Shown: in pieces, positions 10,832 to 30,690 of the stretch
How the letters are laid out: each line of letters begins with the position of its first letter
Position numbering within the stretch: position 1 is the first letter of the stretch
From: a virus
IMG/VR virus record: IMGVR_UViG_3300009537_000078
Span: 1-36,298 of that record
Length of the DNA: 36,298 nucleotides
Direction: 5' to 3' (one strand)
Translations under genes and position numbers: made by a program
The notes under the pieces: generated by a model
What the model was told of the DNA's origin: nothing
Databases searched by the model: none
The model's input: only the letters and a program-made list of their open reading frames with translations

Positions 10832-11119
10832 ATGTCACAGTCACCACGCGATGCGAATAGTGTGCCCGCAGGACTCGGTGTCTCCGATGCCGACTCCGTC
10901 ACAGTTTTGCCATTTTACATAGACTCCGTGACGGGCCGAGTATTATTCAATATCACCGAATCCAGCGATGCCGGGGGCATCACCGCCTCTGCGCCGGCAT
11001 TACGGGAAGGAAATAGAGTGACGACTACTATGGCCACCTATTCTGACGATACTGGCATAGCCCCAGTAGTCATCGATTCGAGAAACGGTAATCTTTATTT
11101 AGATATGTTGTTTGTCTGA
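10832..11119 (+). CDS. Stand-alone tail anchor-domain protein, 95 aa
   Basis: Contains the pattern RDANSV...GVSDADSVTVLP...IDSVTGRVL, repeated in the first 45 residues of the next gene. It ends with VVIDSRNGNLYLDMLFV, probably a strand-forming tail. In longer fibres such segments serve as the N-terminal particle-binding part, so this short version may be an adaptor or cap. The stop joins the next gene as TGATATG. Confidence 0.6.
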   Translation: MSQSPRDANSVPAGLGVSDADSVTVLPFYIDSVTGRVLFNITESSDAGGITASAPALREGNRVTTTMATYSDDTGIAPVVIDSRNGNLYLDMLFV

Positions 11120-14472: not shown

Positions 14473-14676
14473 ATGACCTCCATCACCCACCAGACTTCCA
14501 TCAGCATCGGCCTAGCCATAGTCCTCTTCGGGGGAGCGATGTCGTTCGGTGCGACATGGCAACGTCTTGGGGACCTTGATGGAAGACTGGCGAGGATAGA
14601 GAAGAAGCTGGACTCCAGCAGTCAGATATCCGCGCTAATCAACTCAGGTGATTCTAGCTTAACCGTACGCCCATGA
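14473..14676 (+). CDS. Small membrane protein, holin- or spanin-like, 67 aa
   Basis: One transmembrane helix (about residues 10-27) is followed by a short coiled coil (LGDLDGRLARIEKKLDSS). That pattern is common in class III holins and small lysis proteins. It precedes the first tiny-membrane/C39-peptidase cassette, so a lysis role is an inference from context. A 28-codon frame (14673-14759) begins at its stop (ATGA) and has a counterpart at 18311, so it may be part of the duplicated unit. Confidence 0.5.
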   Translation: MTSITHQTSISIGLAIVLFGGAMSFGATWQRLGDLDGRLARIEKKLDSSSQISALINSGDSSLTVRP

Positions 14677-14710
14677 AGCAAACTGTCCGTCTAACTATTC
14701 TCTCTCAGAT

Positions 14711-14797
14711 ATGTATGACGACGATAGTTTCAACATCTACGGTCTGCTCTGTATCCTAATTTGCCTCGCGATAATCGGACTTGTGACATCGCTATGA
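14711..14797 (+). CDS. Tiny membrane protein, cassette copy 1, 28 aa
   Basis: Starts MYDDDSF, has a Tyr-Gly-Leu step, and the rest is one hydrophobic helix (LLCILICLAIIGLV). It is clearly paralogous to the frame at 18349-18441: both have YDD, F, Y, L and the core LICLA-x-IG-x-V. Each overlaps the start of a C39-like peptidase (here ATGA). It may be a holin, pinholin or export helper for that peptidase. Confidence 0.6.
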   Translation: MYDDDSFNIYGLLCILICLAIIGLVTSL

Positions 14798-15183
14798 TAA
14801 ATCTTCCTACATTCAACCAGTGGGATCCCGCATGGGCCAACAAGCCTCTCGGCAACAGCGGACTGATTTGTCGTAATTACGGATGCTACACCACATCGAC
14901 AGCGATGATACTGAACGCTTATGGCATCCACGTCACGCCAGGCCAACTCCTCGATGCGATGAATCCGGACGGCTTCGATGATACTGGTATGCTCAGGTGG
15001 AACGTGCTGATGGACAAGTACCCCGATATCACTTGGATGGAATCCTGGTACACGACCGTGTTCACCAAGTTTCAAGGGCAGAAGATGGATGATGTAGACA
15101 GGCGGATAGCTCGCATCGAGAACAGGGTCTTTCCGTTCGCACTCGCAACCGAATCAGCCGGCTCAACACGTATAATTAAATAG
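14794..15183 (+). CDS. Truncated C39-like cysteine peptidase, copy 1, 129 aa
   Basis: I chose the ATG at 14794, which overlaps the previous stop. The N-terminal half matches C39-like peptidases: FNQWDPAWANKPLG, then YGCYTTSTAMILNAYG with the likely catalytic Cys31 and VTPGQLLDAM. The half that should hold the catalytic His and Asp is absent, replaced by a short coil (VDRRIARIENR) like that in the membrane protein at 14473. It is probably inactive alone, perhaps a binding subunit or decoy. Compare the full-length copy at 18432. Confidence 0.65.
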   Translation: MINLPTFNQWDPAWANKPLGNSGLICRNYGCYTTSTAMILNAYGIHVTPGQLLDAMNPDGFDDTGMLRWNVLMDKYPDITWMESWYTTVFTKFQGQKMDDVDRRIARIENRVFPFALATESAGSTRIIK

Positions 15184-15189
15184 GAATTT

Positions 15190-15516
15190 ATGTCAGAACT
15201 CTTAGTGAGAAGAGGCACGATACAGACCGTGATTGTCGATACCACTACAAGTGGGGACAATGCGCTTGTCGTCGGCGTAGCGGGTCAGACGATTACAATC
15301 CACCGCATCACGCTCTTTATGAATGCGTCTAACAACATAACGATTAAGGATGGTTCGACCAAACTCTTCGGGACGATGAACTTCACCGCCTCGCAAGGAT
15401 GGGAGCACGATTCTGACACTCATTGTCCCCTAGTCTTGACCTCTGGCAATACCCTTAACCTGAACCTGTCGGCCGCCTCCCAGGTATCAGGGAGGATCTG
15501 GTACGTGCAAGAATAA
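15190..15516 (+). CDS. Small beta-rich tail protein, 108 aa
   Basis: An all-beta protein with a central ITIHRITLFMNASNNITIKDG and a C-terminal LNLNLSAASQVSGRIWYVQ. The alternating hydrophobic pattern suggests a compact sandwich of the kind found in phage tail knobs. It is joined to the next gene as TAATATG, so it belongs with the three paralogous tail proteins downstream. Confidence 0.55.
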   Translation: MSELLVRRGTIQTVIVDTTTSGDNALVVGVAGQTITIHRITLFMNASNNITIKDGSTKLFGTMNFTASQGWEHDSDTHCPLVLTSGNTLNLNLSAASQVSGRIWYVQE

Positions 15517-15517
15517 T

Positions 15518-16267
15518 ATGAGCCATTTTACCAACGACGGAGATGTACCGGCACCGGCCATCATCGTGATGCCTTTGACTGCATCGCAGATTAACGTCTC
15601 TTCCGTTGGTGATACTTATATTGATGTCTCTGGGAATACTTATGCGGAGACCATCAATCAGACTAGGACCACGATGCCATCGTATATACGAACAATCGGC
15701 TGGAGTATTAGCGGGCACGTAAGTGCTGGGACGGGGAGTTTCCAGATATGGGACCAAACTAGTTCTACGCAAATAGGTGTCGTCACGACCACATCCACTA
15801 ACGAGGCACACATGACAAGTGGTAGCGCAGCGACCGTAGCAAATGATCTAGCTACGTTAAGAGTAAAGAATAGCGGTGCCGGCAACACCGTGACCATTGA
15901 TGCGGGAGGATTCATCACTTACGACTCATCATATACGCTTAGCGGCAACGCTCCGGGATACTTCACAATTACGGGAACAGGGGGAGGCGGCTGGTATTCC
16001 AGGATGAGCGTTGTATTGCTTAAGTCCTCGACTGGGGCGACAACCACCATGCAATTCCAGAATGGACTTGTCTCTACAACGATCGCCTCCCCTGGTAATA
16101 ATATCGGCAGTTCTTTTGGAACCAGTCAATCTAATACCGTCTTTACCATCATTCCTGACGTAAAGGCTTATACAGGAACATCTACAGCCATACAACTTAA
16201 TGCCTCCGCTTTGTCAGGTTGGTTTGCCTGTGGAGTATCGTGGGAACTGAAAAACGATTTAGTTTGA
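15518..16267 (+). CDS. Tail protein, tandem paralogue 1 of 3
   Basis: 249 aa, all-beta. It shares with the next two genes an N-terminal block (LTASQINVSSVGDTYIDVS), then SGHVSAGTGSF, a central NSGAGNTVTIDAGG strand and a C-terminal SFGTSQSNTVFTI. The copies differ most in surface-loop regions. This is the pattern of a duplicated host-contact or virion-surface protein. It is joined to its neighbours by TAATATG and TGATATG. Confidence 0.65.
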   Translation: MSHFTNDGDVPAPAIIVMPLTASQINVSSVGDTYIDVSGNTYAETINQTRTTMPSYIRTIGWSISGHVSAGTGSFQIWDQTSSTQIGVVTTTSTNEAHMTSGSAATVANDLATLRVKNSGAGNTVTIDAGGFITYDSSYTLSGNAPGYFTITGTGGGGWYSRMSVVLLKSSTGATTTMQFQNGLVSTTIASPGNNIGSSFGTSQSNTVFTIIPDVKAYTGTSTAIQLNASALSGWFACGVSWELKNDLV

Positions 16268-16268
16268 T

Positions 16269-16994
16269 ATGCAGAATCCATCAAAACCAGTGATGTCTCT
16301 GACGCCCACGCAGATTAACGTCTCTTCCATTGGTGATACTTATACCGATGTCTCTGGGAATACCTTTGCCGAGACTTCCAACCAGACCCGTCTTCTAATG
16401 GCATCTTATGTCAGGACGGTAAACATGATAATCAGTGGACACGTGAATGCTGGGACGGGGAGTTTCAGATCATTTAACTTCACGGATAGTGCAATCTTGG
16501 GTACCAGTACGACGACCTCTGTCACTAGTGTCAAATTGACTCTAGTCTCATCAGCACTAGCTACTAACAAGAATGATTACATCACATTGTTGGTCGCCAA
16601 TAGTGGTGCTGGTAATACTGTGACTATAGACGAGGGAGGGATAATAGCTGCGGATGGGTTCGGATCTAACGGTTTTTCGAGTTTACTTAATATCACCACG
16701 ACTACTACCGGTGGAGGAGGTTATTACAAATCATTAAGCTACGGATTGCTGAAACAAACAACAGGGGCGACTTGTACGATACAACCAATGACCGGCATTA
16801 TTACGTCGACTATTAACAATCCCGGATTTAACATAGATGTCCCTTTCGGAACAGCGCAGGCCAACACAGTATTTTCGATGACTCCAAACGTCAGGATAAC
16901 CACTGGAGTTAGCCACATAATCGCATCCGTTACTGCCATATCCGGAACTTACGCACTGGCGATGTCGTACGAAATAAATAGCGAATTGGTCTAA
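16269..16994 (+). CDS. Tail protein, tandem paralogue 2 of 3
   Basis: 241 aa with the same plan as copy 1 (LTPTQINVSSIGDTYTDVS, SGHVNAGTGSF, NSGAGNTVTIDEGG, PFGTAQANTVFSM). It carries a DNA block (16326-16367) identical over 42 bases to one in copy 3, although the rest of the genes has diverged widely. That suggests gene conversion or recent recombination. It starts one base after the copy 1 stop. Confidence 0.65.
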   Translation: MQNPSKPVMSLTPTQINVSSIGDTYTDVSGNTFAETSNQTRLLMASYVRTVNMIISGHVNAGTGSFRSFNFTDSAILGTSTTTSVTSVKLTLVSSALATNKNDYITLLVANSGAGNTVTIDEGGIIAADGFGSNGFSSLLNITTTTTGGGGYYKSLSYGLLKQTTGATCTIQPMTGIITSTINNPGFNIDVPFGTAQANTVFSMTPNVRITTGVSHIIASVTAISGTYALAMSYEINSELV

Positions 16995-16995
16995 T

Positions 16996-17745
16996 ATGTT
17001 TACCTCTCCCATAATTATTCCCTCCACTACAGTAACGACGCTGACTCCTTCTCAAGTTAACACGTCGTCCATTGGTGATACTTATACCGATGTCTCTGGG
17101 AATACCTTTTCGGAGACTGCACATCAGACAAGGTTGACTATGGCTTCATATCCGCGTTTTGTGGGTGGTTTGACGAGTGGACATGTTAGTTCTGGAACTG
17201 GCACTTTCGAGTTGTTTAATTTTACTGACAGCACATCTTTAGCTACATCGACCACGACATCAACGACAGAGGTCAGGATAGGTTCTTATACCTCGGCGTC
17301 TGTGTCCACTAATGTCAATGATCAGATTACTATCCGGGTCAAGAATAGCGTTGCTGGCGCAACAACAACTATCGACTATGGAGGCATGTTCGAAAGTGAT
17401 ACGAGTATCACTACCGGTGCTTCGGCAGTCGGTTATTTCCCAATAGTCGCAAGTGCTTCTGCTGGTGGTCGGTTCGAGACGTTAAGCATTGCGTCCGTAA
17501 AATATACAAGTACCTCTACAGCGACAATTCAATTATTGAATGGTTTGATATCTAACACGTCGCTTCAGCCTGGCAATGCAATAGGAAATAGCTTCGGTAC
17601 GACACAGGGGACATCGATCATCACCATAACGCCATCGACCAAGATATATGCGGTAGGATCATCCCAGATACTGGCTTATATCTCATCGATAACTAGCTTT
17701 TGGGGGCTCGGTCTTTCAGTAGGGATTAAATGCGATTTAATTTAA
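16996..17745 (+). CDS. Tail protein, tandem paralogue 3 of 3
   Basis: 249 aa with the same plan (LTPSQVNTSSIGDTYTDVS, SGHVSSGTGTF, then VAGATTTIDYGG and SFGTTQGTSIITI). It is the most divergent in the middle and more A/T-rich in places. The conserved 42-base DNA block lies at 17068-17109. Three copies may form a heteromeric tip or give host-range choice through recombination. Confidence 0.65.
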   Translation: MFTSPIIIPSTTVTTLTPSQVNTSSIGDTYTDVSGNTFSETAHQTRLTMASYPRFVGGLTSGHVSSGTGTFELFNFTDSTSLATSTTTSTTEVRIGSYTSASVSTNVNDQITIRVKNSVAGATTTIDYGGMFESDTSITTGASAVGYFPIVASASAGGRFETLSIASVKYTSTSTATIQLLNGLISNTSLQPGNAIGNSFGTTQGTSIITITPSTKIYAVGSSQILAYISSITSFWGLGLSVGIKCDLI

Positions 17746-17749
17746 GAAT

Positions 17750-18286
17750 ATGCACGTCTTCAAGGTAAAGATACCGGACTATGATACAAATCAGGCTCAC
17801 AATCTAGCAGTCGAGATTGGAGATCATCTCGGAGTCGATCTTTGCAATCACGATAAGGAGAATCCGAACCCGGTTCATGGCTACATGAACACCGATTCCG
17901 AAGGCAACGTCGAAGTGTATCTTTATGAGCCGAAAGAGGTAGAGATAATCAACAACCTGCCGCACACGATAACAGATGCTACAGAAGAGGAGGAACGTGC
18001 CGTGTCTATCAAACACCCAGAAATTGAACTGGAACACCATGACACCGACTTGGACGAGCTGCACGACAAGCTCTGTGAAAAACTGTGCGATGAGAAAGGT
18101 GGAGTCTTGGACAAATGTTGCAAGGACGGCTTTGCTTGCGAGCCTCACCACCTCTGCTGTCTCGCGGATATGCTGGTAAAAGAAGGCGATACACACGTCC
18201 TCAAGCCAGTAGATATGCCGGCAGACGAAGAGACTGCGCAGAGGAGCGAATCAACGGATGAAGAGACGGCTAAGAAGAGCGAATAA
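17750..18286 (+). CDS. Cysteine-rich acidic protein, 178 aa
   Basis: The N-terminal half is mixed alpha/beta (VFKVKIPDYDTNQAHNLAVEIG). The middle is acidic and helical. A cysteine cluster around residues 108-145 (CEKLCDEKGG, CCKDGFACEPHHLCC) could bind metal or form disulfides. The end is a Glu/Ser/Thr tail with a repeated DEETA motif. It lies between the tail paralogues and the second lysis cassette. Function unknown. Confidence 0.55.
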   Translation: MHVFKVKIPDYDTNQAHNLAVEIGDHLGVDLCNHDKENPNPVHGYMNTDSEGNVEVYLYEPKEVEIINNLPHTITDATEEEERAVSIKHPEIELEHHDTDLDELHDKLCEKLCDEKGGVLDKCCKDGFACEPHHLCCLADMLVKEGDTHVLKPVDMPADEETAQRSESTDEETAKKSE

Positions 18287-18348
18287 ATCCTCTGATTTAA
18301 CACCATCATCATGGAGCAAAACCGCGGTCTAACTCTTATCTACCCGGT

Positions 18349-18441
18349 ATGCATTATGATGACAACTTTGATCCGTACGCCCTAATGATTACCCTTATCT
18401 GCTTAGCAGGTATCGGAATAGTAATTGATATATGGCACTAA
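18349..18441 (+). CDS. Tiny membrane protein, cassette copy 2, 30 aa
   Basis: Begins MHYDDNFDPY and continues as one hydrophobic helix containing LICLAGIGIVIDIW. It is the paralogue of the frame at 14711-14797 and overlaps the start of the second C39-like peptidase by ten bases. A short frame at 18311 (MEQNRGLTL) matches the one at 14673 (MKQTVRLTI), so the duplicated DNA extends upstream of this gene. Confidence 0.6.
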   Translation: MHYDDNFDPYALMITLICLAGIGIVIDIWH

Positions 18442-19091
18442 AAATCTTTGGACAAAGAGACCCGCGCTGGACGAATCACCCATTAGGCTCGACGACTATC
18501 GGGGCTATGGGCTGTCTGAATACGGCATTTTGTTCCGCACTCTCTTGCTGGGGCATCGATCTGATGCCAGACAAAGCGGAAGAAATGCTAGCAAGCAAAA
18601 AAGCAATAGACATCAACGGAGACTTCATACCAGCTAATGTCTTCTTGGCATACCCAATGCTGAAGCTTTTGGGCCAAGATTATGTCGAGAAGCCTCTATT
18701 CAATACTCAACTCGTCACGGGAGACACCGTACTCGACAGGACAGAGAAGATGCTGGCGATCGGTCAGCCTGTTCTCCTGCACGTAAAACTAGGGTCCAAC
18801 CTAGCCAGGTCTAACCATTGGGTCGTGGCTTCCCCCCAGTCCGGGCCACTGGTCATCATGGACCCGTGGTTCGGAGATATGGTGCCGTTTGCCAGTCGAT
18901 ACGGCGACCCAGCACATCAGATATTCGGTGCCATACGGTTCTTCGGCCCAGTCACAGACGCTCCGAATAAGATGCTTATGAACCTGTCATTCAAAGCCTA
19001 CGAGATGATGCAGGCATCAGGGCATCCGGAGCTCCAATACAAGATAGACACTTATTCTAAGGAAGTATTTAACGATATTCTAGGCATATGA
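18432..19091 (+). CDS. C39-like cysteine peptidase, copy 2 (full length), probable lysin
   Basis: 219 aa. It opens like copy 1 (FGQRDPRWTNHPLG), with a likely catalytic Cys28 in GAMGCLNTAF. Unlike copy 1 it keeps the second half: SNHWVVA with His129 and IMDPWFGD with Asp144, completing the Cys-His-Asp set. C39-like domains cut peptides; in a phage lysis context the target could be the peptidoglycan stem, but this is an inference. The following gene is holin-like and overlaps it (ATGA), which supports a lysis module. Confidence 0.75.
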   Translation: MALKIFGQRDPRWTNHPLGSTTIGAMGCLNTAFCSALSCWGIDLMPDKAEEMLASKKAIDINGDFIPANVFLAYPMLKLLGQDYVEKPLFNTQLVTGDTVLDRTEKMLAIGQPVLLHVKLGSNLARSNHWVVASPQSGPLVIMDPWFGDMVPFASRYGDPAHQIFGAIRFFGPVTDAPNKMLMNLSFKAYEMMQASGHPELQYKIDTYSKEVFNDILGI

Positions 19092-19312
19092 ACATCCTAA
19101 AAAAACTCTGGTCTAAGCTGCCATCATCGACACAAGCTCATGTCGTCAGCTTCCTGCACACCTTCGCGGCGTCGCTCATAGTCACCATCGGCGCACAGAT
19201 AACACTGCCCAATCCGTCGTTTACCGAAGATGCATTGATGTCACTGGTCATTTCTGCCGTCCGCACCGCCATCAAAGTAGCACTCGCCAAGGAAGCCACT
19301 CCTACTCCTTAA
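19088..19312 (+). CDS. Holin-like membrane protein, 74 aa
   Basis: A short protein with a basic start (KKLWSKLPSS), a central helix (about residues 22-41, FLHTFAASLIVTIGAQITL) and a second moderately hydrophobic helix (about 50-67). Two helices, a charged N-terminus and linkage to the peptidase gene by an ATGA overlap fit a holin or a membrane partner of lysis. It ends in a Thr/Pro tail. Confidence 0.6.
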   Translation: MNILKKLWSKLPSSTQAHVVSFLHTFAASLIVTIGAQITLPNPSFTEDALMSLVISAVRTAIKVALAKEATPTP

Positions 19313-19322
19313 GCAACCAATT

Positions 19323-20231
19323 ATGCGATCCCTGACCTCGCTCCTGAATCTCTACCAAAATCTGACGCTGGACAGTTCCACAGCGAATCAGACGCTTGGG
19401 ACGACATTCATAAATGACTCCATCAAACTCATCTGCACGGCGAGGGACTGGGACTTTTCCAAAAAACAAGCCTCGCTCTCGACAGTTGCACTTCAACAGT
19501 TCTACGACTTGCCGAATGACTACGACCAGCTCATAGATACGACAATCACGGTGGGGACGACAAAATATACTCCAAGAGAATGTCCGTCGCAGGAACGATG
19601 GGATTTTCTGAACGAGGTGACTTCATTCTCGTCCAATTTCCCTGAATGGTTCTTTATCTTGAATGGCCGAATCGGATTCTATCCGACGCCATCCGCGTCT
19701 GGTAATACCATCACCCTCACCTATCGTAGGAAAGTAGTCGATCTTCAATTCACCGACTACACGACAGGCACGTTAGATATAGTGACCAATGGGTCCAACG
19801 CTGTGACGGGTGCGGGGTCATCATGGACTGCTTCCATGATAGGCAGGTGGCTCAAGATAACTCCCGATGCAGCTGTTGCCAAAAATGGTGATGGGTATTG
19901 GTATCAGATAGCCACGGTGCCATCTTCAACTACATTGACGCTCGTAAAGAACTATCAAGGAACCTCCATGACCACCGGCGCAGGAGCTGCCTATACGATT
20001 GGCGAGATGTCCATCATTCCCGAAGCCTATATGGACTTACCGGCCTATGAGGCCGCCGTCACTTACTTCATCACTCAAAATCCAGATTCCATGCGCGCGA
20101 CGAACCTGAAAGAAGTCTATGCTGAAAAGTACGCGCAACTGGTCTATGACCATTCAGTGAGAACAAGCAACCCCGTTGTCGAGAAAGTCGAGCGTGTCCA
20201 GATAAATCCAAACCTAACAGTGACATTTTAA
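19323..20231 (+). CDS. Head-tail adaptor, tail tubular protein A-like (T7 gp11 type)
   Basis: 302 aa. The N-terminal helices (LTSLLNLYQNLTLDSS, INDSIKLICTARDWDF) and the following YDLPNDYDQLIDTTI segment match the general plan of podovirus adaptor proteins that bind the portal. The middle has beta inserts (LDIVTNGSNAVTGAGSSW). The C-terminal YMDLPAYEAAVTYF...LKEVYAEKYAQ is a helix pair, also typical. It connects the portal ring to the nozzle encoded next; the junction is TAATATG. Confidence 0.75.
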   Translation: MRSLTSLLNLYQNLTLDSSTANQTLGTTFINDSIKLICTARDWDFSKKQASLSTVALQQFYDLPNDYDQLIDTTITVGTTKYTPRECPSQERWDFLNEVTSFSSNFPEWFFILNGRIGFYPTPSASGNTITLTYRRKVVDLQFTDYTTGTLDIVTNGSNAVTGAGSSWTASMIGRWLKITPDAAVAKNGDGYWYQIATVPSSTTLTLVKNYQGTSMTTGAGAAYTIGEMSIIPEAYMDLPAYEAAVTYFITQNPDSMRATNLKEVYAEKYAQLVYDHSVRTSNPVVEKVERVQINPNLTVTF

Positions 20232-26546: not shown

Positions 26547-26589
26547 TTCCACACACGAAAGCTAATGCGATGCCAGCTAGTAAGTTCAT
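26467..26589 (-). CDS. Antisense mini membrane protein, 40 aa
   Basis: Begins MNLLAGIALAFVCGTIGSW (one membrane helix) and ends in a charged helix (ELKRKNQDLDERLVE). It has both a promoter (26619-26646, minus) and a strong Shine-Dalgarno (AGGAG eight bases before the ATG), unlike most genes here. It overlaps the 3' end of the ejection-protein gene in antisense. Candidates are a small toxin-like peptide, a lysis accessory or an anti-host peptide. No family recognised. Confidence 0.65.
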   Translation of the reverse strand: MNLLAGIALAFVCGTIGSWVDEVLFELKRKNQDLDERLVE

Positions 26590-26618
26590 ATGAATCTCTC
26601 CTAATACATACACCCCCA

Positions 26619-26646
26619 TCTATACTCATAATCCCTAAACTGTCAA
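26619..26646 (-). promoter_or_regulatory. Minus-strand sigma-70 promoter for the antisense mini-gene
   Basis: Read on the minus strand, -35 TTGACA (26646-26641), 16-bp spacer and -10 TATAGA (26624-26619). It lies in the gap between the ejection-protein gene and the ATP-grasp gene and points toward 26589. A transcript from it would be antisense to the end of the late operon. Confidence 0.65.
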
Positions 26647-26654
26647 GTACCTCT

Positions 26655-28037
26655 ATGGCCGCTCTTAAGAAAATATTCATCACTTCATTCTATGGAGAAG
26701 GGTTGGCCATTGGCTATCAGCTCCAACGCGAAGGGGTCAAGGTCTATGCATCCATCATCGCGGACATCAACGACACCGTGACGCAGTGGGAAAAGAAGAA
26801 AACCGAGGACCAAGAAAACAAGAAAAAAAGACTTTCTTTGTTCGACGGTATCATAGAAAAACAACCGATCGATGGTTGGGTCGATTTCGTATCAAAGAAC
26901 GCGGACTCCAACTCGTTTATCCTTAACGATTTCAACAGCACGTGGAAATATGCTGAACAATTATCTACCCTAGGAATTGTCGGGATATATCCAACCGAAG
27001 ACGATAGGCGCCTCGAGATTGATCGGGCATTCGCAAAGGATTTTATTAAAAAACATTATCCGGAGGTCGAGATAGCGGAGGAGCATGAATTCAAAAAGGT
27101 AACTGATGCTATAAAGTTTGTTGAAGGTTCATCTGATTCTTTTTGTATCAAGGGGAACAACGATGACGCCCCGACCTTCGTCCCCGATACTGACGACGAG
27201 GAGGCAGCCAACTTATCTACGGTAAATAAGTTGAACGACGAAAAGACGATCTACGAAAAGGGTGGCTTCATCCTCGAAAAGAGAATCAAAAACTGTAAGG
27301 AACTCAGTCCCCAGGCTTGGTTTGTTAACGGAGAAATGGTCGCCACTTCTCTCGATATTGAATTAAAACGTATAGGAGCTGGCGATATAGGTTTTATGAC
27401 TGGTTGCGCTGCCGATCTGGTATTTGAAACGCCGATTGACTCTGAAATTAACAAGGTGGCCTTCCCGCCCATCGTTAAGAAGATGGCAAAAGATCATCCA
27501 GGGGTTTTTATCTGGGACTTATCGCTTCTTTATGATCCTGAAACCGGAACAGCTTACGGCTCGGAATTCTGCCCCGCCCGACCAGGATACAATGCTTTCT
27601 TTACCGAGCTGGCTCATCAGGAGGAGAAGAAAGTCTTTTTTGAACGCCTGATGTCGGGTCAAAGTCCCTACGAAGACAAGTCGGCTAAGTTTGGAGCCTC
27701 TATTCGCATCTTCAATTTCAAGTCTTCTGGCGGAGATATGAGCGTACCAGAAGGTAAGCGAATCGAACTTACCGGAGAGACAGAACAGAACTGCTGGCCG
27801 ATGGACGTGAAGGAAGGAAAAGAAGGGATGGAATCTATTGGATGGGATTATCAATTGGCGGTGGTCACAGGGACTGGCGATACCATCAAGCAGGCTGCCA
27901 AGGAGGCATATAAGGCCGTAGCGGGATTTGGATTCGTTGATAAGGTCAATAGGCCCATGGAAGACTATCTAAGTACCAAATATCCATCCAGCATTGTTAA
28001 CCGGTATGACTGGGGCTCGAGAGAAGGCCTCTGGTAG
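26655..28037 (+). CDS. PurD-like ATP-grasp ligase, 460 aa
   Basis: I chose the ATG at 26655 (MAALKKIFITSF); an upstream frame start at 26565 would add an unrelated 30 residues. The order of segments follows phosphoribosylamine-glycine ligase: a Rossmann-like start (KIFITSFYGEGLAIGYQLQREGVKV), a central EKGGFILEKRI, then ELKRIGAGDIGFMTGCAADL (about 237-256), which matches PurD's KR-x-x-D-G-D-x-G-P-x-T-G-G-M segment. A GSEFCPARPGYNAFF follows in the region where PurD has metal-binding residues. Some PurD positions differ (FMTG for PNTGG), so the substrate may not be phosphoribosylamine and glycine. It lies at the end of the late operon. Confidence 0.75.
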   Translation: MAALKKIFITSFYGEGLAIGYQLQREGVKVYASIIADINDTVTQWEKKKTEDQENKKKRLSLFDGIIEKQPIDGWVDFVSKNADSNSFILNDFNSTWKYAEQLSTLGIVGIYPTEDDRRLEIDRAFAKDFIKKHYPEVEIAEEHEFKKVTDAIKFVEGSSDSFCIKGNNDDAPTFVPDTDDEEAANLSTVNKLNDEKTIYEKGGFILEKRIKNCKELSPQAWFVNGEMVATSLDIELKRIGAGDIGFMTGCAADLVFETPIDSEINKVAFPPIVKKMAKDHPGVFIWDLSLLYDPETGTAYGSEFCPARPGYNAFFTELAHQEEKKVFFERLMSGQSPYEDKSAKFGASIRIFNFKSSGGDMSVPEGKRIELTGETEQNCWPMDVKEGKEGMESIGWDYQLAVVTGTGDTIKQAAKEAYKAVAGFGFVDKVNRPMEDYLSTKYPSSIVNRYDWGSREGLW

Positions 28038-29888: not shown

Positions 29889-30092
29889 TCAGTGACCTTT
29901 GTTCCATGGAGTTGAGCCTTTTAATGTCTTACTTATTTTCATCCTTGTCTCCTTAGAAGGAGAGTGTCCTTTTAGACTTTTACTTAATTTTAATCTAGTT
30001 TCTTTTGACAAGGTGTGTCCTTTCAAACTGTTGCTTATTTTATTTTTATGTTCCTCGCTCAACGTGCAGGTTGGCCATCGTCTAATTACCAA
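29889..30092 (-). CDS. NUMOD3-repeat protein, remnant of a homing endonuclease
   Basis: Three near-identical segments of the NUMOD3 type (LSEEHKNKISNSLKGH, LSKETRLKLSKSLKGH, PSKETRMKISKTLKG), a DNA-binding helix repeat of GIY-YIG and HNH homing enzymes, ending PWNKGH. No nuclease domain is attached. The start is uncertain (TTG at 30092, overlapping the upstream stop). It may be a degraded element or a freestanding DNA-binding peptide. Confidence 0.55.
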   Translation of the reverse strand: MVIRRWPTCTLSEEHKNKISNSLKGHTLSKETRLKLSKSLKGHSPSKETRMKISKTLKGSTPWNKGH

Positions 30093-30310
30093 CTAATTAA
30101 GCCATTACCATTGTCATCGCCATTACCATTGCCATAGCCATTGCCATAGCCATCGCCATGGCCACTGCCATAGCCACTGCCATCGCCATTGCCATTGCCA
30201 CTGCCACTGCCACTGCCACTGCCATAGCCATTGCCATAGCCATTGCCATAGCCATTGCCATAGCCATAGCCATTGCCATAGCCATTGCCGTAGTTTTTAA
30301 GAGCTTCCAT
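30086..30310 (-). CDS. Gly/Tyr/Asn hexanucleotide-repeat protein, 74 aa
   Basis: I chose the ATG at 30310, twelve bases after the upstream stop; an ATG at 30376 would overlap that gene. It begins MEALKNYGNGYGNG and consists of Gly in every second position alternating with Asn, Tyr, Ser or Asp, with a LISW end. The DNA is a six-base tandem repeat. Such sequences change length easily by slippage. The composition resembles low-complexity, phase-separating or glycine-rich loop proteins; that is an inference. Confidence 0.5.
   Translation of the reverse strand: MEALKNYGNGYGNGYGYGNGYGNGYGNGYGSGSGSGSGNGNGDGSGYGSGHGDGYGNGYGNGNGDDNGNGLISW
30102..30292. repeat. Hexanucleotide tandem repeat (GCCATN)n
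   Basis: Roughly 30 imperfect copies of GCCATA, GCCATT, GCCACT or GCCATC in plus orientation. The period of six keeps every frame open in translation, which explains the artificial Met-Ala frame on the same strand. It is the only microsatellite-like tract of this size seen in the window. Confidence 0.9.
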
Positions 30311-30321
30311 ACGATCCGATT

Positions 30322-30690
30322 CTAACTTCTCCAAATCGGAGCCGAGACTATTACATTCTTGGAAGTCTCTGTGCATGGCATGACAGTGTTCGCATCAAGC
30401 AAAGTCATCTCGGGAACTTCCTGCGTTATCTTACTTTCGGTCAGGTTCTTGATACCTTCCTGCGTCAACTGGGCAAGAGAAGCCGCGCCTTTCCAATACC
30501 AGATATTACGGGCATTGACGATGATGATCTTCGTTCCTTCCTGTTCTTTGATATACCCTGCCCACACGCCGGACTGACAACCGCGGACGATGCAATACTT
30601 CATGCCTTTATGAGACTTGGCCGGAACACTTGTCGGAACGCTGTCTGCTCTGACGTACTTCACTCCATCTACGATTAGTTCTTTTGCCAT
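30322..30690 (-). CDS. DUF6948-like small phage protein, 122 aa
   Basis: Contains MKYCIVRGCQSGVWAGYI, then KIIIVNARNIWYWKGAASL and a helical LAQLTQEGIKNLT. This ordered pattern is typical of a small phage family listed as a DUF; I recall it by pattern only. It starts at 30690 after a structured non-coding stretch. Function unknown; the family occurs in early or accessory regions. Confidence 0.65.
   Translation of the reverse strand: MAKELIVDGVKYVRADSVPTSVPAKSHKGMKYCIVRGCQSGVWAGYIKEQEGTKIIIVNARNIWYWKGAASLAQLTQEGIKNLTESKITQEVPEMTLLDANTVMPCTETSKNVIVSAPIWRS

Follow-up and report, generated by a model that had tools for sequence, protein, structure and literature searches.

Known lysis cassettes and C39 peptidases

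The PBSX-type lysis cassette of Bacillus subtilis, XhlA-XhlB-XlyA (PMC5589764), and the XhlA-containing lytic cassettes of enterococcal phages (PMC10630273) have neighbouring genes for a small coiled-coil/transmembrane (TM) protein, a holin and a wall-cutting enzyme. XhlA-like accessory proteins are likewise known from other phages, as is shuffling among the genes of lytic cassettes (PMC10630273, PMC5589764). Here we describe two loci with this type of gene content in the IMG/VR virus record IMGVR_UViG_3300009537_000078, a linear record of 36,298 bases that was analysed whole and is referred to as the window. A sequence-only reading had noticed that 14711-15183 and 18349-19091 each carry a membrane peptide of 28-30 amino acids (aa) followed by a C39-like peptidase, and both pairs are indeed present. 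Like the PBSX and enterococcal cassettes, the window has a small coiled-coil/TM membrane protein, a holin-like gene and a putative wall-cutting enzyme. It differs in that a C39-like enzyme stands in place of an amidase and is preceded by an additional TM peptide of 28-30 aa, and in that the cassette falls into two parts 3 kb apart, with an extra copy that is truncated.

Cellular members of the C39 family work near transporters and not in lysis (PMC10318531). There is, nevertheless, a viral precedent in PeiR, the lytic enzyme of the methanogen provirus phi-mru, which has a C39 peptidase as its catalytic domain (PMC6189367). The likeness between PeiR and the second peptidase of the window is one of description (a viral lytic enzyme with a C39 catalytic domain), and PeiR has pseudomurein-binding repeats, whereas no wall-binding domain was detected in the window protein. 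The reading that we favour, and hold to be fairly probable, is that the two loci are parts of a holin-endolysin-type lysis module with an exchangeable C39-type (papain-like cysteine) peptidase, which was split by mosaic recombination.

Two copies of a membrane peptide and a C39-like peptidase

All features of the two loci, the genes between them and the adaptor gene after them lie on the plus strand. The first membrane peptide (14711-14797, 28 aa, MYDDDSFNIYGLLCILICLAIIGLVTSL) has an acidic N-terminus and the second (18349-18441, 30 aa, MHYDDNFDPYALMITLICLAGIGIVIDIWH) is of similar size; one TM helix is predicted in each. The copies are identical at 14 of 28 residues and their local alignment scores 70 against a shuffle mean of 21.6, a value not reached in any of 2000 shuffles. 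Among 595 pairs of hydrophobic small open reading frames (ORFs) in the window this pair ranks first, with the runner-up scoring 45. Because 17, 20 and 9 of 28 codons are identical at the first, second and third position, respectively, the peptides appear conserved as proteins while their synonymous sites are saturated. This coding-type conservation indicates that both were kept under selection, at least for much of the time since they diverged, which makes the duplicated peptide a candidate for a minimal holin-type peptide under clear selection. Neither copy matched a holin in Pfam, NCBIfam or PHROG. Both are tightly joined to the peptidase gene that follows: the first stop overlaps the peptidase start as ATGA at 14794-14797 and the end of the second overlaps the peptidase start by 10 nucleotides (nt) at 18432-18441.

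The peptidase of the first locus, copy 1 (14794-15183, 129 aa), more likely starts at the ATG at 14794, within the overlap with the peptide stop, than at the TTG at 14761. It matches Peptidase_C39_2 (PF13529, papain-like clan CA) with 35.4 bits (E 1.9e-8) over profile positions 2-93 of 143, above the curated Pfam cut-off of 24 bits. The pattern Q-x-D-P-x-W ... G-C ... H-W-V-V ... D-P-W is shared with this family. Copy 2 (18432-19091, 219 aa), our candidate endolysin, has all three catalytic residues (Cys28, His129 and Asp144), but scores below the cut-off. As had been noticed from the sequence, copy 1 retains only the Cys half: Cys31 is present, there is no His after residue 46, and catalytic His and Asp are both missing. 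We rejected a frameshift as the cause, because no frame downstream of 15060 encodes the His and Asp part that copy 1 lacks, and its stop is followed 7 nt later by the start of the next gene; the gene is thus better described as truncated. A resemblance of the copy 1 tail to the coiled coil of the gene at 14473 (DDVDRRIARIENRV and GDLDGRLARIEKKL, with 1 of 2000 shuffles as good) was set aside, as the motif is common in coiled coils.

The nearest full-length homologue of copy 1 (34 bits) was found in a related phage, record G022 (L098:2915-3583), with its Cys-His-Asp triad intact. Copy 2 also matches this protein (E 2e-4), and its triad aligns with Cys28, His105 and Asp123 there. That copy 2 belongs to the C39 peptidases is supported by its homology to both copy 1 and the G022 enzyme. 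Direct homologue searches with either copy against phages, viral contigs and genome contigs gave nothing significant, and sequence searches of PDB gave no relevant matches.

The two window peptidases are related to each other (local alignment score 79, not equalled in 2000 shuffles), but the similarity is limited to the first ~50 residues, the rest being at chance level (p 0.79), and only 7 of 43 third codon positions are identical. Since synonymous sites are saturated and the peptidases are alike over so short a stretch, a recent duplication is ruled out, and the comparison points to an old divergence or to two separate acquisitions. The term duplicated, used in the sequence-only reading, therefore holds in that a diverged pair exists, while the duplication itself is uncertain. 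Nor are the loci distant, as they had been called: only 3.2 kb separate them, a stretch with several genes that include three tandem paralogues.

The 38 nt before each peptide start (leader 1, 14673-14710; leader 2, 18311-18348) are identical at 26 of 38 positions. No random pair out of 200,000 reached this value and for ATG-anchored pairs the corresponding chance is 2e-5. The match of upstream short frames claimed earlier is thus above chance; however, identity by codon position (7/12, 8/12 and 10/12) follows no codon pattern, for which reason we read these stretches as non-translated. They look like a conserved leader and not like a translated ORF, and upstream short frames were not accepted as genes. 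One such frame (14673-14759), out of frame with the peptide, begins in leader 1 and overlaps the upstream stop as ATGA. An RNA hairpin is predicted at 18291-18363 (-20.1 kcal/mol, z -3.9), enclosing the ATGs at 18311 and 18349, while the prediction for leader 1 gives z -0.1, so a strong hairpin is confined to the leader of copy 2. Translational control of the active cassette by this predicted structure is possible.

The small membrane-protein genes at the outer sides of the loci complete the arrangement. Locus 1 is preceded by a gene for a 67 aa putative accessory membrane protein (14473-14676) with an N-terminal TM helix (maximum 19-residue hydropathy 1.8) and a coiled-coil stretch (LGDLDGRLARIEKKLD). 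It has a weak PHROG holin match (E 0.046) and no match to XhlA (PF10779). Locus 2 ends with a gene for a 74 aa holin-like protein (19088-19312) with two hydrophobic segments, in which no holin family scored above threshold in Pfam, NCBIfam or PHROG. It overlaps the copy 2 peptidase as ATGA, so that the TM peptide, the peptidase and the protein with two hydrophobic segments form a run of consecutive overlaps. A peptidase beside small TM genes is the layout of holin-endolysin cassettes, in which this enzyme would presumably degrade the wall.

Corresponding cassettes in related phages

To our knowledge, the lysis genes of phages related to those of candidate-phyla (Patescibacteria) bacteria have hardly been described. 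Relatives of the window phage were reached through its terminase, and through the adaptor for two loci. The terminase matched 368 related viral contigs, the best 80 of these were retrieved, and 82 relative records were searched in total; as many of them are fragments, absence from them is weak evidence. The layout of a coiled-coil/TM protein, a peptidase and a small TM protein recurs in several of these podovirus-like phages. It is found in L109, L112, L098 (G022), L084 and L110, in two of them at the identical site before the adaptor gene, which in the window (SU10-type, 19323-20231, PF24175, E 1.1e-14) lies directly downstream of the holin-like gene and serves as the syntenic anchor.

In L109, the genes directly before the adaptor encode a 72 aa TM/coil protein, an M23 peptidase (L109:5716-6462, E 4.7e-16) and a 76 aa TM protein joined by an ATGA overlap. 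In L112 they encode a 110 aa coil/TM protein (L112:7385-7717) with a weak XhlA (PF10779) match (E 0.02), an M23 peptidase (L112:7719-8429, E 2.5e-18) and a 119 aa TM protein. At this site the window has copy 2 and the 74 aa holin-like protein in place of the M23 set: both M23 genes are syntenic with copy 2, and the gene at 19088-19312 sits in the place of L109:6459-6689 and L112:8431-8790. The 67 aa protein at 14473-14676 corresponds in place and layout to L109:5496-5714, with homology undetectable (p 0.28). M23 is a family of wall peptidases, and its presence in such a cassette is most naturally read as serving to cleave peptidoglycan during lysis. We propose copy 2 as a lysis enzyme because it holds the position of these M23 peptidases.

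The other cassettes carry other enzymes. In G022, an 82 aa coil/TM protein, the C39 peptidase with intact triad and a 65 aa TM protein that weakly matches a PHROG holin (E 0.017) lie at the end of the late genes. L084 and L110 have enzymes flanked by small TM proteins (L084:12005-12880 and L110:13338-14255, 27.6% identity over 275 aa, E 1e-16), which we tentatively call papain-like from their motifs (Q..C, H, N-S-Y/W-G), neither having a Pfam match. In L107 a TM protein comes after a gene product that weakly matches NlpC/P60. Unlike the window, these relatives have their cassettes in a single copy, mostly with another peptidase class (M23 or papain-like) and without the 28-30 aa peptide, which among the genomes examined was seen only here. 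A blind scan for a soluble protein of 120-320 aa between two small TM proteins returned six matches among 444 distinct soluble ORFs of that size. Five of the six are peptidase-like (two C39, two M23 and one papain-like), and the sixth, a hydrophobic frame, is probably spurious.

These comparisons suggest that the phage group has an exchangeable peptidase between small membrane proteins, that is, a single conserved position at which enzymes of unrelated classes (C39, M23, papain-like and possibly NlpC-like) replace one another. They yield concrete candidate lysis enzymes, and a search based on layout could reveal lysis genes of uncultured phages where sequence fails.

A proposed split lysis module and its alternatives

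If the two loci form one split lysis module, its working half would be the second (18349-19312), with the one-helix peptide, the C39-like endopeptidase with intact triad and the two-helix holin-like protein before the adaptor. The coiled-coil/TM accessory gene, which normally precedes the peptidase, would now stand at 14473-14676 beside copy 1. Locus 1 would thus comprise the TM/coil gene, leader, peptide and truncated C39 gene, and locus 2 the leader, peptide, intact C39 gene and holin-like gene. The small membrane proteins, made late, would destabilise the inner membrane or open it; the peptidase would then gain access to the wall and cut its peptide cross-links, and finally the cell would burst. 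The arrangement could have arisen by recombination of two cassette-bearing phages, or by an old duplication followed by insertion of cargo, after which copy 1 would have lost the C-terminal half of its C39 domain. The copy 1 peptidase is probably a relic, while its TM peptide may still be in use. We infer the lysis role from gene position, and the substrate and the late timing likewise. A role in lysis or at the envelope, as proposed in the sequence-only reading, gains support from the like cassettes in relatives, two of which stand directly upstream of the adaptor with an M23 enzyme. Other lysin families were absent from the window proteins scanned.

Several observations weigh against this proposal. 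Copy 2 reaches only 17.5 bits (E 0.0063) against PF13529, or 18.1 bits in a second scan, and its structure prediction (AlphaFold, two sequences) had a predicted local distance difference test (pLDDT) value of 39. C39 enzymes occur in only two of the 82 related records, G022 and G048, and in the latter the context is apparently unrelated to lysis: the C39-like domain (L104:17910-18827) forms one protein with a long coiled coil and is encoded apart from the structural genes. A profile of both membrane peptides found no relative among 15,569 small ORFs of the relatives' loci. The other small membrane proteins have a layout in common with those of relatives and no sequence homology to them, although holins are usually alike in layout rather than in sequence. 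Finally, the window is an incomplete, linear fragment, and an endolysin could lie beyond its ends.

We regard it as unlikely that the peptidases are virion-associated entry enzymes which open the wall during genome delivery. Their genes do lie inside the structural block, among structural and adhesin-like genes, and G022 encodes a 689 aa virion-type protein (L098:5648-7717) with a C-terminal M23 peptidase domain (E 1.4e-16), typical of virion-associated lysins and probably one itself. However, copy 2 is small and single-domain, with no structural domain recognised, the overlaps of ATGA and 10 nt tie the peptidases to small membrane-protein genes on both sides, and relatives repeat the three-gene layout with other peptidases, G022 having it where its late genes end. 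An even smaller chance is given to the idea of a C39-like enzyme that serves to process either phage proteins or some secreted peptide, with the membrane peptide as its substrate or anchor; this is the least probable of the explanations considered. The classical C39 enzyme is a leader peptidase that is fused to an ABC transporter (PMC10318531), and in this genome the tiny peptide is always paired with a C39-like enzyme. Against this, no ABC transporter was found in the window, both 28-30 aa peptides lack a double-glycine leader, and in the syntenic cassettes the enzyme's place is taken by M23, a wall peptidase family.

The remaining alternatives concern the state of copy 1. That it is a retained pseudo-enzyme which regulates copy 2, as heterodimer, decoy or wall-binding antagonist, seems distinctly improbable to us. 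Its frame is open over 129 codons with no internal stop, its C39 core is still recognisable (E 1.9e-8), and the membrane peptide beside it is clearly constrained; yet that constraint is uninformative about the peptidase fragment, which ends just before the His strand and has a tail unlike copy 2, no relative in the set has a second C39 copy, and the triad is intact in the nearest full-length homologue, that of G022. Thus the regulated pair of an inactive and an active paralogue imagined in the sequence-only reading found no positive evidence, and the paired arrangement that it proposed to look for in other phages was absent from those sampled. It would be more of a long shot still to suppose that both copies are used, the dead C39 as antagonist or timer, and the peptides and leaders, with a hairpin only in the active copy, to set the timing of lysis. 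If true, a phage of candidate-phyla bacteria with a reduced wall would here pair an endolysin with a pseudo-endolysin. We consider it very improbable that copy 1 is full-length in reality and only looks truncated through an artefact of assembly or sequencing. The intact G022 homologue comes near to the situation in which the sequence-only reading would have called copy 1 an artefact, but this relative is too distant to settle the matter, and a simple frameshift error is insufficient given that the frames downstream of 15060 hold no His/Asp half and the next gene is 7 nt away.

The phage and the surrounding genes

The window contains a major capsid gene (NF033394, E 1.2e-52) and a portal gene (PHROG 156), which with the terminase and adaptor genes place the phage, as judged from sequence, in a large podovirus-like group. 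In cellular genomes the terminase had a single match (41% identity), on a 40 kb contig of a Candidatus Woesebacteria metagenome-assembled genome. As this contig is phage-sized and may be a binned phage, Patescibacteria are only tentatively proposed as the host group; Microgenomates bacteria have known podoviruses (PMC6509639), with which this proposal is compatible.

In the closest relatives (L003, L008, L016 and L024) the interval from the coiled-coil gene (window 10100) to the adaptor (window 19323) is empty or nearly so; the cassette region of the window is lineage-specific. L109 resembles the window in two genes of this interval, with 54% identity to the gene at 10832 and 70% over the N-terminus of that at 11112. 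Homologue searches with the gene at 10832 gave no result.

The genes between the two loci (15190-18286) encode a 108 aa beta-rich protein, three tandem paralogues of ~245 aa (15518-17745, 46-47% identical to one another) and a 178 aa Cys-rich protein. Neither Pfam nor PHROG assigned them to a family, homologue searches with the three paralogues were negative, and they are probably virion or adhesin cargo. None of 14 gene starts inspected in the window had an obvious upstream Shine-Dalgarno sequence. After the structural genes, 26565-28037 encodes a protein of 490 aa that contains a PurD-like ATP-grasp region (TIGR00877, E 1.6e-11, far short of the cut-off of that model), and an ORF of YGNGYGNG-type repeats lies on the minus strand at 30086-30376.

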